64,000 nucleotides of DNA from contig NZ_AP017378.1 of the NCBI RefSeq assembly GCF_003966735.1, positions 1,349,501 through 1,413,500 on the forward strand, written 5' to 3'. Each line of letters opens with the position of its first letter. Positions within the stretch are counted from its first letter, which is position 1. Positions 3 to 22,838 of this stretch are shown in pieces. Below the pieces are notes generated by a model. That model searched no databases and was not told where the DNA came from. It saw only the letters and a program-made list of their open reading frames with translations. Origin of the DNA: Desulfovibrio ferrophilus (lineage in GTDB: Bacteria > Desulfobacterota > Desulfovibrionia > Desulfovibrionales > Desulfovibrionaceae). The position numbers and the translations under genes are program-made.

Positions 3-95
3 AACGTGGTCAGCAAGATAACCTCGTGGAAGGGAACGGCTCAGCTCGATGGCAACATTAAGTTTTTCTGGAAAAAGCTCCTCTTCCAAGACTGA
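3..95 (+). CDS. C-terminal tail of a probable FlhG/MinD-like flagellar ATPase (partial)
   Basis: An open frame enters from the left edge and stops with TGA at 93-95. Its last residues read GNIKFFWKKLLFQD. A basic and aromatic tail of this kind is what I expect at the end of FlhG (YlxH/MinD-type) proteins, and flhG commonly sits directly upstream of fliA. Only about 30 residues are visible, with no catalytic motif, so the name rests on position and tail character. It overlaps the chosen fliA start by 47 bases, which would suggest translational coupling. The two other frames close at 21 and 61. Confidence 0.45.
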   Translation, partial: NVVSKITSWKGTAQLDGNIKFFWKKLLFQD

Positions 96-837
96 GCCCT
101 GGAAGTTCCTGGAGACCGGAGAGGTCATCTGGGAAGACTTCAGTGCAAGGGACAAGGATGAGATCGTCAGGCACTATGCGCCGAAGATCAAGATTCTTGC
201 GCTCAGACTCAAGGGAAAACTGCCCCAGCAGGTAGAGCTCAACGAGCTCATCTCTGCCGGGTCTTTGGGGCTGATCGAATGCCTGCGCAAATACAAGCCC
301 GAGCTGAACATCAAGTTCGAGACCTATGCGGAAAACCGCATCAAGGGTGCCATGCTGGACGAACTCAGACGCATGGACTGGTTTTCTCGTGGGCTACGAG
401 CTCGTGTCCGCCAATTGGAAGACGCCATCCGAACCATCGAACACCGCACAGGCACAACGCCTACCCGCGACGAAATCATGGAGGTCACTGGCCTCTCCCG
501 CAAGGATGTCGAATCGGGCTTGGCAGCACTGCAAAATCAGCTCTGCCTGTCGCTGGAAACCATCCAGGAACATTTCTCGCCGGAATCCAGCGCCCACCAC
601 GACAACGAACCATACCGCAGTGCGGCCCTTCAAGACGTCGTTGACAAAATTGCCGGTTTAATAGACGAATTGACGCTTCGAGAGAAACTGGTATTATCTT
701 TGTACTACAGTGATGAGTTGAACATGAGGGAAACTGCCGAAGTTATGGGGATAACCGAAGGCAGAGTGTCACAACTCCACTCTCAAGCACTCAAAAAATT
801 ACGCAAAAAATTTAGAGCCGCCTACGGCCTCGAGTAA
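49..837 (+). CDS. fliA: RNA polymerase sigma-28 factor FliA (flagellar)
   Basis: Flagellar sigma factor that directs core RNA polymerase to late flagellar and chemotaxis promoters. The 262 residues fit the family length. Region 2 is recognisable at about residues 65-125 (ELNELISAGSLGL, KFETYAENRIKGAMLDELR, DWFSRGLR). Region 3 is central, and region 4 with its helix-turn-helix lies at about 208-257 (LTLREKLVL, MRETAEVMGITEGRVSQLH). The start at 49 has only a distant purine-rich stretch (GGAAGG near 28), so expression may rely on coupling to the overlapping upstream frame. cheY follows after 13 bases, so the block is probably one flagellar operon. Activity is usually held by anti-sigma factor FlgM, which is not in view. 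Confidence 0.95.
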   Translation: MATLSFSGKSSSSKTEPWKFLETGEVIWEDFSARDKDEIVRHYAPKIKILALRLKGKLPQQVELNELISAGSLGLIECLRKYKPELNIKFETYAENRIKGAMLDELRRMDWFSRGLRARVRQLEDAIRTIEHRTGTTPTRDEIMEVTGLSRKDVESGLAALQNQLCLSLETIQEHFSPESSAHHDNEPYRSAALQDVVDKIAGLIDELTLREKLVLSLYYSDELNMRETAEVMGITEGRVSQLHSQALKKLRKKFRAAYGLE

Positions 838-19765: not shown

Positions 19766-19824
19766 CTTGCCAAGCCATCAAGCCCACACTGGTATCACCA
19801 GTGTGGGCTTGATGGCTTGGCAAG
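19766..19824. repeat. Perfect 28-bp inverted repeat with a 3-base loop
   Basis: The arm at 19766-19793 is exactly complementary to 19797-19824, leaving the loop ATC. On the plus strand no T tract follows. On the minus strand the hairpin is followed by TAATTTTTG, so as an intrinsic terminator it would stop leftward transcription. The stem is far longer than a normal terminator. It sits 17 bases after the TPR gene. Confidence 0.9.
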
Positions 19825-20182
19825 ATCAACCTCCCATACTCAAACAAGCACCCTGCTCCCAGGTGACAAGAACGTGACACAAGCAGGCCCTATGAATGTT
19901 TCCCCGGCAACATTATTCACCCACTAAATGAAATAATCCGTTTCACCTCTTCGCACAGCCTGCATATCCACCTCAAAACCTACATAAATATTTGTAGATT
20001 TGATATCACGCCAACCAATTAAAAAGACTATAAACGCCTTAAATATCGACTTAATAAAACACTCTTGACGAATTCAAACGAGATTCATCGAGGTCTTTAA
20101 CTCCATGAACCTCTCATTGACAGTGGTGCGATGCTTGCATAGAATCACTTGACGACTGAACGATTTTCCGGAGACAAGAATA
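19825..20182. other. AT-rich intergenic region ahead of the surface-sugar operon
   Basis: About 360 bases with no credible ORF on either strand. Base composition is clearly richer in A and T than the flanking genes, with short runs such as AAATATTTGTAG and AATTAAAAAG. The right end holds a near-consensus promoter (20117-20145). The rest may hold regulator sites, but I see no strong palindrome. Confidence 0.6.
20117..20145 (+). promoter_or_regulatory. Strong sigma-70 promoter for the 20.2-22.8 kb operon
   Basis: TTGACA (20117-20122) and TAGAAT (20140-20145) are separated by exactly 17 bases. Transcription would start near 20152, about 30 bases before the first ATG at 20183. Confidence 0.78.
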
Positions 20183-20797
20183 ATGCTGCAACACCAAGGG
20201 CGTTTTCTGCGCCCCAGCACCGACAACCGCACGCTCTCTCTGCTGGAGACCCTCTCGGAAGACAGCGCGGTCTCTCAATCCGCCCTGGGCGAACGCACGG
20301 GGTTATCCGGTGCCATGGTCAACAAGTACCTTCGGGAATTGCAGCATCAGGGCCTGATCGACAAACGCCCCCTGAATGCCAAGAGCTACGAATATGTCCT
20401 GACCCAAGCCGGACACAGTCAACGCAGAGAACTGCTCGGTGAGTACTGTGCCGAGATTGTTCGCAGCTACACGGCATTGAAGGCTCTCATAGGTAATAAA
20501 CTGGATAGCCTGGAAAAATCCGGTAAGCAGCGTCTGGTCCTCTGGGGAGCATCAGAGACCTGCGAGGTTGTGCTCTCTGCCATCCAGAACACCGGACTGA
20601 CTGTTCTGGCACTTGTGGACAGCGCCCCCGCCAAGCACGGCACGATGCTGGCCGGGCACGCCATCCTGCCTCCTGACATTCTGTCCAGCATGCATTGCGA
20701 TGCCGTGATCATCACCTCCTTCGGCAAGAGTGATGATATCCACGCCCAGCTCAAACCCTTGGCCATGGCCCATGGCCTGGAGGTCGTGCGCTTATGA
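20183..20797 (+). CDS. Winged-helix DNA-binding domain fused to a Rossmann-like domain
   Basis: A 204-residue protein of unusual design. Residues about 15-78 form a winged helix of MarR type (SVSQSALGERTGLSGAMVNKYLRELQHQGLI). Residues about 113-204 have a Rossmann-like pattern: LVLWGASETCEVVLSAI, LALVDSAPAKHG, GHAILPPDIL, AVIITSFGK. This resembles small nucleotide- or sugar-nucleotide-sensing domains found beside PglD-type enzymes. It is the first gene after the promoter at 20117 and overlaps the NeuB-type gene by four bases. I infer a regulator of surface-sugar synthesis that may sense a metabolite, but it could be enzymatic. Confidence 0.7.
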   Translation: MLQHQGRFLRPSTDNRTLSLLETLSEDSAVSQSALGERTGLSGAMVNKYLRELQHQGLIDKRPLNAKSYEYVLTQAGHSQRRELLGEYCAEIVRSYTALKALIGNKLDSLEKSGKQRLVLWGASETCEVVLSAIQNTGLTVLALVDSAPAKHGTMLAGHAILPPDILSSMHCDAVIITSFGKSDDIHAQLKPLAMAHGLEVVRL

Positions 20798-21888
20798 AAA
20801 CTTTGCCTATCATCAAGCTCAAAAGTGGCCGCAGCATCGGCCCTGGTCAACCCTGCTTCGTTGTTGCCGAAATCGGCAACAACCATCAAGGCAGTGAGGA
20901 CATGGCCCGGGAAATGATCGACCATGCGGCCCGGAGCGGTGCTGATGCAGTCAAATTCCAGAAGCGCGACACCACGGCCCTGCTGACCCGCGAAGGCCGC
21001 GAAAGGCCCTATCCGGGCAGTAATAGTTTTGGCCCAACCTATGGCGAGCATCGCGATGCTCTGGAGCTTTCCATCGAAGCCATGGGGCGCCTGAAGGACC
21101 ATGCAGAGCATCAAAATCTGACATTTTTTGCGTCACCTTGGGATCTACCCAGCCTGGAAGGGCTGCGTCAATTGGAAGTGGAACTGATCAAAATCGCTTC
21201 GGCGGACCTGACGACCCTGCCTCTCATTCGCTGTGCCAGCGAACTGCATCTGCCCATAATTCTGTCCACGGGCATGAGCAGCGTTGAAGAAATCAACCAA
21301 GCCGTGCTTGAAGTCCGACGGCACCATTCCCAATTGATCCTGCTGCACTGCAACAGTTCCTATCCCTGTCCTCCCGAAGAGATTGCCTTACCCGCCATGC
21401 GCCGACTCGAGCAGCGGTTCGGCCTTCCCGTGGGATACTCCGGTCACGAAGCGGGCATCGCCCCCTCCGTCGCCGCGGTAGCCTTGGGAGCCTGCATGGT
21501 GGAGCGTCATTTCACTCTGAATCGCACCCTACCCGGGACAGATCACGCAGCTTCGCTGGACCCCAAAGGCTTTGCCCGAATGACGGCCATGATTCGCGAG
21601 GTGGAAGCAACCCTGGCCGTATCCGAAAAACGCGTCACGCCGACGGAATCAGCCTGTGCAGTCAAACTCCGCAAGAGTATCGTCGCAGCCCGGGATTTAC
21701 CTCAAGGAACACGGCTCACCCCGGAACACCTTACCATGAAAAGCCCAGGGGACGGGATCTCACCAATGCACTGGGACAGCGTCATGGGCAGCGTCACGAC
21801 TCGCCCATTGAGCGAAGACCAGCAGCTTATGTGGGAGGACATCACTGAGGCAATCTCTCCTCAAACGGCCACGGGGGAATCGGCATGA
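20794..21888 (+). CDS. NeuB-family N-acylneuraminate/nonulosonate synthase
   Basis: Condenses an amino-sugar with phosphoenolpyruvate to a nine-carbon acid such as sialic, legionaminic or pseudaminic acid. The 364 residues have an N-terminal TIM barrel (VVAEIGNNHQGS, ADAVKFQKRD, FFASPWDLPSLEGL, STGMSS, CNSSYPCP, GYSGHEAGI, ERHFTLNR) and a C-terminal SAF/antifreeze-like domain (about 300-355, KSIVAARDLPQGTRLTPEHL). Which sugar is made cannot be read from sequence. No CMP-nonulosonate synthetase lies nearby. It overlaps both neighbours by four bases. Confidence 0.85.
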   Translation: MKTLPIIKLKSGRSIGPGQPCFVVAEIGNNHQGSEDMAREMIDHAARSGADAVKFQKRDTTALLTREGRERPYPGSNSFGPTYGEHRDALELSIEAMGRLKDHAEHQNLTFFASPWDLPSLEGLRQLEVELIKIASADLTTLPLIRCASELHLPIILSTGMSSVEEINQAVLEVRRHHSQLILLHCNSSYPCPPEEIALPAMRRLEQRFGLPVGYSGHEAGIAPSVAAVALGACMVERHFTLNRTLPGTDHAASLDPKGFARMTAMIREVEATLAVSEKRVTPTESACAVKLRKSIVAARDLPQGTRLTPEHLTMKSPGDGISPMHWDSVMGSVTTRPLSEDQQLMWEDITEAISPQTATGESA

Positions 21889-22838
21889 ACATCCTGATGA
21901 TTGCCGTCAATGATCCCGCCGGAACGGCCATCGGGTTTGCCGATGCCATTAACCGGCGCACCGAACATTTCTGCCGCGTGGCGACCCTGGAAACTCGTTA
22001 TAATCACAACTGGCGCAAGGACCTCCACATTCCGGAGTTGGACAGAACGGGGTTGATTGAATTGGAAGAGACCTTACTCTCGGCCGACGTCTTCCACTTC
22101 CACATGACCGCTGATGAGAACTTGAGGTTAGGCCCGTTCCTGCCCAAAGACTTCATGAACGGCAAAGCACTGGTGCACCATCATCACGGACACCCAGACT
22201 TCCGGGACAATCCAGGCAAATACAGCCAAAAATATGATATGCTCAACCGTCGCAACCTGCTGGTGAGCACTCCCGACCTGCAACACATTCTACCTGAAGC
22301 CCGCTGGCAGCCGAACTGTGTCAATGAGCAGGACCCAGCCTATCAGCCTCTTGCCGACAAACCCCAGACACCAATCCGCATTGCCCATTCGCCCACAAGG
22401 CGAGACCTCAAGAACACCGACGACCTGCTCGGCGTGATGCAAACCCTCCTTGCCGAAGGCCATTCCCTTGAACTGGACCTCATCGACGATGCACCCCACT
22501 GCGACTGCCTGGAACGCAAACGCCGCGCGCACATCTCCTTCGACCATATGCAGGGATACTACGGCATGAGCAGCCTTGAGTCTCTGGCCCAAGGCGTGCC
22601 TACCGTGGCAGGTTTATCAGACTGGTGTATTGGTCAAATGCAGGAATTCACTGGCACGGCAGATCTGCCTTGGCTGGTGGCACGAAACGCGAAAGCTCTC
22701 AAAGATATCCTGACCCACCTGAGCTGTGACACGGATGAACGTCACAAAGCGGGTGCCCATAGCCGCGCCTTCATGGAGCGCTACTGGAACGAAGAACGGG
22801 TCATCGGACGATTGATGGAATTTTACGAGACGCTGTAA
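21885..22838 (+). CDS. Putative glycosyltransferase (GT-B/GT4-like)
   Basis: A 317-residue protein with an N-terminal MNILMIAVNDPAGTAIGFA, a mid-region HFHMTADENL and HHHHGH, and a C-terminal half with IRIAHSPTRRDLKNTDDLL, FDHMQGYYGMSSLESLAQGVPTV. This is the GT-B pattern of an activated-sugar site followed by an E-x7-E-like helix. Donor and acceptor are unknown. It overlaps the NeuB-type gene by four bases and ends 30 bases from a convergent second glycosyltransferase, so it may transfer the product of the NeuB-type enzyme. Confidence 0.7.
   Translation: MNILMIAVNDPAGTAIGFADAINRRTEHFCRVATLETRYNHNWRKDLHIPELDRTGLIELEETLLSADVFHFHMTADENLRLGPFLPKDFMNGKALVHHHHGHPDFRDNPGKYSQKYDMLNRRNLLVSTPDLQHILPEARWQPNCVNEQDPAYQPLADKPQTPIRIAHSPTRRDLKNTDDLLGVMQTLLAEGHSLELDLIDDAPHCDCLERKRRAHISFDHMQGYYGMSSLESLAQGVPTVAGLSDWCIGQMQEFTGTADLPWLVARNAKALKDILTHLSCDTDERHKAGAHSRAFMERYWNEERVIGRLMEFYETL

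Follow-up and report, generated by a model that had tools for sequence, protein, structure and literature searches.

The locus studied here lies in a stretch of 64,000 nucleotides, hereafter the window, and consists of three overlapping genes preceded by a promoter region that carries a predicted operator (table 1). The first gene encodes a protein, P0001, in a single frame of 204 codons that opens with ATG and has no internal stop, and its own stop overlaps the start of the neuB gene within the tetranucleotide ATGA (20794-20797). The NeuB-family synthase reaches 328 bits against the NCBIfam model TIGR03569, below the cut-off of 399.65, and its sugar product is therefore not fixed by this match. 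The third gene probably encodes a glycosyltransferase; NCBIfam glycosyltransferase models match it only weakly (E 0.02-0.03), and Pfam gave no match. The genome holds four NeuB-family matches and one regulator of the present kind. A relative of P0001 at 85% identity exists within the same genus, and a search of 59 genomes, the source genome included, returned 18 further nearly full-length relatives (E <2e-47), all free of internal stops. A chance reading frame is ruled out by this conservation across many genera, and a split or frameshifted gene by the single stop-free frame in the 18 close relatives.

Table 1. Features of the neuB locus in the window, with the evidence on which each assignment draws.
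Feature	Coordinates	Residues	Strand	Evidence and remarks
Putative regulator gene (P0001)	20183-20797		+	204 aa; profile matches, predicted structure, conservation
Winged helix of regulator, MarR-like	20225-20401	15-73	+	Pfam and AlphaFold2
Linker helix of regulator		75-112	+	Predicted; 38 residues, joins the two domains
Rossmann-like domain of regulator	20531-20791	117-203	+	Predicted structure, profile matches
NeuB-family synthase with SAF domain	20794-21888		+	PF03102 1.9e-77, PF08666 3.2e-14
Third gene, probably glycosyltransferase (inferred)	21885-22838		+	317 aa; overlaps NeuB by 4 bases
Sigma70-like promoter	20117-20145		+	TTGACA (20117-20122), 17-base spacer, TAGAAT (20140-20145)
Sigma54-like -24/-12 element	20124-20139		+	TGGTGCGATGCTTGCA; score 14.5 of 16.5; 0.7% of shuffles as good
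Predicted operator	20144-20164		.	ATCACTTGACGACTGAACGAT; best palindrome-model match upstream, 14.7 bits

The N-terminal part of P0001 matches PF13412 (HTH_24, 5.3e-8) and PF01047 (MarR, 1e-5), the latter at 25.7 bits against a cut-off of 24.6, which places it within the winged-helix DNA-binding fold of the MarR superfamily. The AlphaFold2 model gives residues 15-73 three helices and a beta wing, and in VIA-align, used as a second look at the match list of Foldseek, this part superposes on the MarR-type repressors 1jgs (Z 14.6, rmsd 2.7, 96 residues aligned) and 1lnw_D (Z 14.4, rmsd 1.7, 89 aligned). The C-terminal part follows a Rossmann-like order in the model (b117-121, a124-134, b140-145, a164-169, b174-177, a184-196, b200-203). 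Confidence in both structure models is middling (mean pLDDT 70.7 and 67.3, with residues 149-161 below 50), because the underlying alignments held two sequences only. A fusion of these two domains had been proposed in an earlier note made from the sequence alone, and the Pfam matches and the predicted structure, at that middling confidence, bear it out.

The second domain is akin to domains of sugar enzymes, again as the earlier note had supposed. Its best PDB match by sequence profile is 3nkl (E 1.7e-4), deposited as UDP-D-quinovosamine 4-dehydrogenase, Rossmann-type domain; the top Foldseek hit is WbaP, a sugar-phosphate transferase (E 1e-3); and residues 117-197 match positions 1-82 of the 202 in the NCBIfam NeuD model TIGR03570 (E 1.7e-5), at 24.5 bits against a NeuD/PglD cut-off of 160.8. 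The NeuD/PglD acetyltransferases have a hexapeptide-repeat catalytic part. Unlike these enzymes, 3nkl and WbaP, P0001 has no catalytic part in its 204 residues, and its domain is joined to a DNA-binding one. When the sequence of P0001 alone was compared with PDB sequences, nothing better than E 0.031 was found. In structural superposition, periplasmic binding proteins head the VIA-align list for the C-terminal domain (Z up to 10.9), and the Rex-family chain 3wg9_B (Z 9.1, rmsd 2.7, 90 aligned), 3nkl_B (8.8, 2.8, 89), WbaP (8.4, 2.5, 86) and the Rex-family chain 5zz7_B (8.4) lie within one point of each other; thus the structure shows only that the domain is Rossmann-like and singles out no one relative. 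P0001 also scores 26.3 bits against Methyltransf_14 (PF08484), above the gathering cut-off of 23.5, but this is a hint of fold, not of function: only 9 of 44 family members match that model at E<=0.001, and no methyltransferase domain is listed for P0001. No whole-protein model in Pfam or NCBIfam names the fusion family or its operator, in line with the earlier note, which did not recognise the combination from a named family.

Of the genomes sampled, 80 of 199 in the same taxonomic family and 80 of 395 in the same phylum contain matches at E<=1e-12, some of them partial. Among close relatives, NeuB lies directly downstream in 44 of 45 distinct loci, as counted over the loci that the searches returned (49 less the duplicates L087, L098, L099 and L101) rather than over all 80 matching genomes. 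The link to NeuB that had been read from the window is thereby supported; the sole exception (L013/L042) is a second copy in a genome, G031, whose other copy does have NeuB. Intermediate relatives (33-39% identity) have NeuB within 1.2 kb in all six loci, four of which also carry a homologue of the glycosyltransferase-like third gene near it. The earlier note had named homologues without sugar genes as the finding that would speak against its reading. In distant relatives NeuB is indeed missing near 33 of 34 loci, some of the stretches being short, and lies 6 kb away in the remaining one (L128). Surface-sugar genes as such persist, however: in the 26 of these 34 loci covered by a simple script that chose the next gene, 21 next genes are of a surface-polysaccharide kind, namely glycosyltransferases, sugar-nucleotide epimerases, dehydratases, dehydrogenases and nucleotidyltransferases, ABC-2 exporters, a Gfo/Idh-hexapeptide fusion and NusG-type antiterminators (four). 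The remaining five are not clearly of this kind (a HAD-like hydrolase, a methyltransferase, an ATP sulfurylase, an ABC exporter and one gene without a match). In a 45-row tree a single branch (100/100) separates the 11 NeuB-linked rows from the rest; the family alignment has 44 rows and only five close relatives, the NeuB-free L042 is off the tree, L128 was scored as 'other' and the partial hit L051 enters neither the alignment nor the counts. Outside this phylum, two alphaproteobacterial plasmids of Chelatococcus carry a nearly full-length relative of the distant L141 (31.9% identity over 94%), which in the one locus fetched sits between a mannose-1-phosphate guanylyltransferase gene and gmd. 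The plasmids matched when L141 was the query and gave no match with P0001, and no relative was found in viral contigs.

What the second domain does may be read from its conservation. In 19 aligned rows of close relatives, the loop 121-131 around GASETCE has a mean entropy of 0.31 bits, against 0.67 at the end of strand 4, 1.3 over the whole domain and 1.04 in the recognition helix; columns 122 and 123 are invariant G and A, and column 127 is invariant C. Since this nucleotide-binding loop is the most conserved stretch tested, the domain is probably a sensor for a pathway metabolite. Judged by eye, NeuB-linked rows read GA[SA]xT[CAG]E with DNDPxK-like letters and rows elsewhere carry other letters; this rough correlation of loop letters with clade pathway speaks for a ligand from the pathway rather than one of general use such as NAD(H).

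The latter ligand would be expected of a Rex-like redox regulator, in which the Rossmann-like domain would couple surface-sugar synthesis to the redox state. Rex binds NADH, and its C-terminal helix is swapped between subunits. The domain order, with a winged helix ahead of a Rossmann domain in some 200 residues, is that of Rex, both Rex-family chains appear among the structural matches of the model, and an invariant aspartate (D146) lies near the end of strand 2. Yet the GxGxxG dinucleotide motif is absent from P0001, which has GASETC in its place, the gene setting differs, the sequence match to Rex is weak (5zz5, E 0.28), and the P0001 model ends at strand 200-203 with no helix after it. The missing motif and, in the model, the missing swapped helix rule out a plain Rex; taken with loop letters that, by eye, roughly follow the pathway from clade to clade, they make a Rex-like redox sensor unlikely. 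We also regard as quite unlikely the reading in which the Rossmann-like domain senses no ligand and serves as a scaffold instead, helping the protein to dimerise or to make contact with a sugar enzyme such as NeuB. The loop does lack the classic glycines and has two acidic residues (E125, E128), and the gene linkage to NeuB is tight; but the ligand-site loop and the strand ends are the most conserved parts measured, and other clades retain the domain without NeuB. A sensor of a pathway metabolite thus remains our preferred reading of this domain, and it is the one carried forward below.

The predicted operator in front of the gene derives from a palindrome, ATCaTTCAgTaAcTGAAtGAT, found in the 220-bp upstreams of 19 close loci (LL 116.6; the best of 12 shuffled sets reached 47.8); these 19, out of 46 close upstreams, represent 18 genera, with G031 entering twice. 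When each upstream was left out in turn, a site was recovered at p<=0.02 against 300 shuffles in 17 of the 19, and none of significance in L013 and L019. For the window, the model built from the other 18 upstreams gave the site at p 0.007 (300 shuffles); its right arm is TGAAC, its left arm the degenerate AATCA, and a 23-base version with AATC...GATT ends spans 20143-20165. The site lies within the region, 20050-20182, that the earlier note had singled out for a binding assay. It is not among the 11 matches of a strict near-clade pattern in its own genome, a pattern of whose 46 sites in 10 genomes only 4, from 3 genomes, fall in a regulator promoter. A consensus drawn by eye, TCATTSACNNNGTSAATGA, is matched at 14 or more of 16 positions in 24 of the 46 upstreams, mostly of two genera, and in none of 1840 shuffles; the upstream of the window reaches 11 of 16 at best, away from the reported site. 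The predicted operator overlaps the -10 box TAGAAT of the sigma70-like promoter, which agrees with the consensus at 11 of 12 positions and is not significant alone (the region has one such site, its shuffled versions 0.6, sd 0.7). The overlap suggests repression of the operon by its own product, although overlap alone does not fix the sign.

Separate searches of the NeuB-linked and distant clades both arrived at the inner core of the palindrome, TTCA-N5-TGAA. When 33 distant upstreams (those of the 34 loci with enough upstream sequence) were searched on their own, AaTGTTCAaAaTtTGAACAtT emerged with 192.6 against at most 49.5 in six shuffled sets, and the six intermediate upstreams gave TGTCCATTCAcTGAATGGACA with 75.3, where shuffled sets reached 31.7 at most. 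Among the distant upstreams GTTCA...TGAAC has a spacer of 5 in 20 of 33 and no other spacer from 0 to 13, the other 13 upstreams having no exact GTTCA-N5-TGAAC. With a looser half-site pair, the 46 close upstreams peak at spacers of 9 (27), 5 (14) and 13 (13), spacer 1 counting four and all others two or fewer, and this pattern indicates nested arms around one centre. Across 24 distant genomes (85.7 Mb) the exact pattern YGTTCA-N5-TGAACR occurs 50 times and its reversed control twice; 30 of the 50 sites, from 20 of the 24 genomes, are found in the 300 bp ahead of the regulator. This promoter enrichment is partly circular, the motif having been drawn from some of the same upstreams, whereas the genome-wide rarity is not. 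Sites are paired 47-50 bp apart in six genomes (other spacings are 67 and 15). Among the other 20 sites, ten fall inside reading frames as called by a simple script, one precedes an ABC-2 exporter gene (in G254), one precedes a GDP-mannose dehydratase gene, and three, all in the genome G350, overlap the starts of wing-only MarR_EPS-type relatives (L205, L206 and L207, near position 2001), two of them intact MarR_EPS proteins (130 and 128 bits) and the third with a broken frame. The Chelatococcus member, which had not been used for motif finding, has two TTCA-N5-TGAA sites 41-81 bp upstream, where 0.08 would be expected in its 12.5 kb.

The named family closest to these proteins is MarR_EPS (TIGR04176). 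Its winged helix is related, 41 of 44 family members matching the model at E<=0.001, but the model covers the wing only (105 positions), and its cut-off of 88 bits is not reached by P0001 (29.5), by two distant members (70.5 and 60.1) or by the Chelatococcus protein (51.5). The setting among polysaccharide genes is likewise common to both: NeuB and the glycosyltransferase-like gene in the window, and polysaccharide genes at most of eight MarR_EPS plasmid loci. These eight, from Rhodobacterales plasmids and fetched out of 15 MarR_EPS records (four of the eight from Sulfitobacter), each have one GTTCA-N4-TGAAC 80-118 bp upstream; counted over spacers 3 to 6, none has a spacer of 3, 5 or 6. In the first MarR_EPS locus to be tested there was no N5 core, and the N4 form was noticed by eye afterwards in the same eight loci in which it was then counted. 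By the criterion that we propose here, the half-site GTTCA/TGAAC is common to MarR_EPS (8/8) and the fused family (20/33 distant), the spacer being 4 at the eight plasmid loci and 5 both in the fused family and in the two intact G350 genes. A half-site common to wing-only and fused proteins indicates that the winged helix, and not an unrelated factor, reads it, and we propose GTTCA-N4-TGAAC as a candidate binding site for the MarR_EPS family. One paper reports a MarR family EPS-associated gene as raised under NaCl stress (PMC10599003); the literature searched gave no functional study of MarR_EPS.

The same half-site bears on the idea that the palindrome belongs to another factor, for instance a sigma54 enhancer-binding protein, and that the wing-Rossmann protein acts elsewhere. 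The sigma54-like element of the window lies inside the spacer of the sigma70-like promoter and would be either a rival to it or a second promoter. A same-genus locus (L003) scores 15.5 at the matching place, in genus g29 14 of 15 rows have such an element 87-110 bases ahead of the start, as do g28 and g20 at 95-96 bases, and the main text of one paper describes sigma54-dependent exopolysaccharide operons in Desulfovibrio vulgaris (PMC4641369), without the words MarR, sialic or neuraminate. The position of the palindrome relative to this element varies, however (upstream in g29 and g20, downstream in g28 and the window), genus g4 has by eye a sigma70-type promoter, and the half-site precedes wing-only homologues of another phylum in all eight loci fetched as well as the two intact MarR_EPS genes of G350. 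A separate factor is in our judgement very unlikely, and binding by the winged helix itself is the reading retained.

From the computed architecture, operon linkage, conserved promoter palindrome and conserved nucleotide-binding loop, we infer actual binding, the sign of regulation, the dimer form and the ligand as follows. With somewhat better than even confidence, we propose an autoregulator of the regulator-neuB-glycosyltransferase operon, with its operator in its own promoter and a Rossmann-like sensor, that would exert feedback on surface glycans. Heading this operon as a one-component transcription regulator, the protein would form a dimer, probably through the long linker helix, and its MarR-like winged helices would bind the palindrome at 20144-20164, over the -10 box; it is probably a repressor, the bound form most likely shutting down its own operon. 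The Rossmann-like domain would sense a small ligand of nucleotide type, the likeliest candidates being a sugar nucleotide and other intermediates of the pathway, and the ligand would alter the affinity for DNA and so adjust surface-glycan synthesis.

Given that relatives head other surface-sugar operons and have a common site before their own genes, the family looks like a widespread and undescribed self-regulating switch. Going further, it is possible, though on balance we lean slightly against it, that this is a nucleotide-sugar-sensing family in which MarR_EPS-type wings are combined with a sugar-enzyme-like Rossmann sensor, each clade being tuned to its own pathway (in the NeuB clade, a nonulosonate intermediate) and all using one operator core, of which two copies often lie 47-50 bp apart. 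If true, this would amount to a general feedback rule for bacterial surface glycans. The parts are of known kinds; what appears to be new is the fusion as a family and its operator, and no paper on such a fusion was found in the literature searched, whose coverage leaves out most subscription journals. To our knowledge, little is known about the transcriptional means by which bacteria adjust surface-glycan synthesis to the supply of precursors. The family offers a simple candidate for such control, one small protein with a wing and a sensor-like domain; it can be screened directly for ligands, and the predicted operator opens its target genes to a search.

Several minor observations accompany these results. 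In the window, a near-perfect hairpin without a T run (19766-19824, strands 95% matched over 59 bases) lies just 3' of a TPR gene and has no second copy in the genome. A CheV-like gene stands two genes on in the window, and one follows NeuB in 5 of 18 close loci (L033, L034, L037, L040 and L045). In four distant loci (L118, L129, L132 and L141) the regulator gene is immediately followed by the NusG-type antiterminator gene, an arrangement that might give polysaccharide operons a two-step control. Among the NeuB proteins, that of L111 (7621-9498) is fused to an AP_endonuc_2 TIM barrel in a protein of 626 aa, and those of L107 and L108 have no SAF match at the limit used. In three genomes of genus g294 (G509, G520 and G531) the two domains of the regulator match as separate pieces, 1-114 and 114/117-194, within one listed frame, which suggests an insert or an altered linker. 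Another reading frame, on the minus strand of L046 (5456-5815), matches residues 80-202 of the regulator at 29.6% identity and is perhaps a sensor-type domain inside a sugar enzyme.
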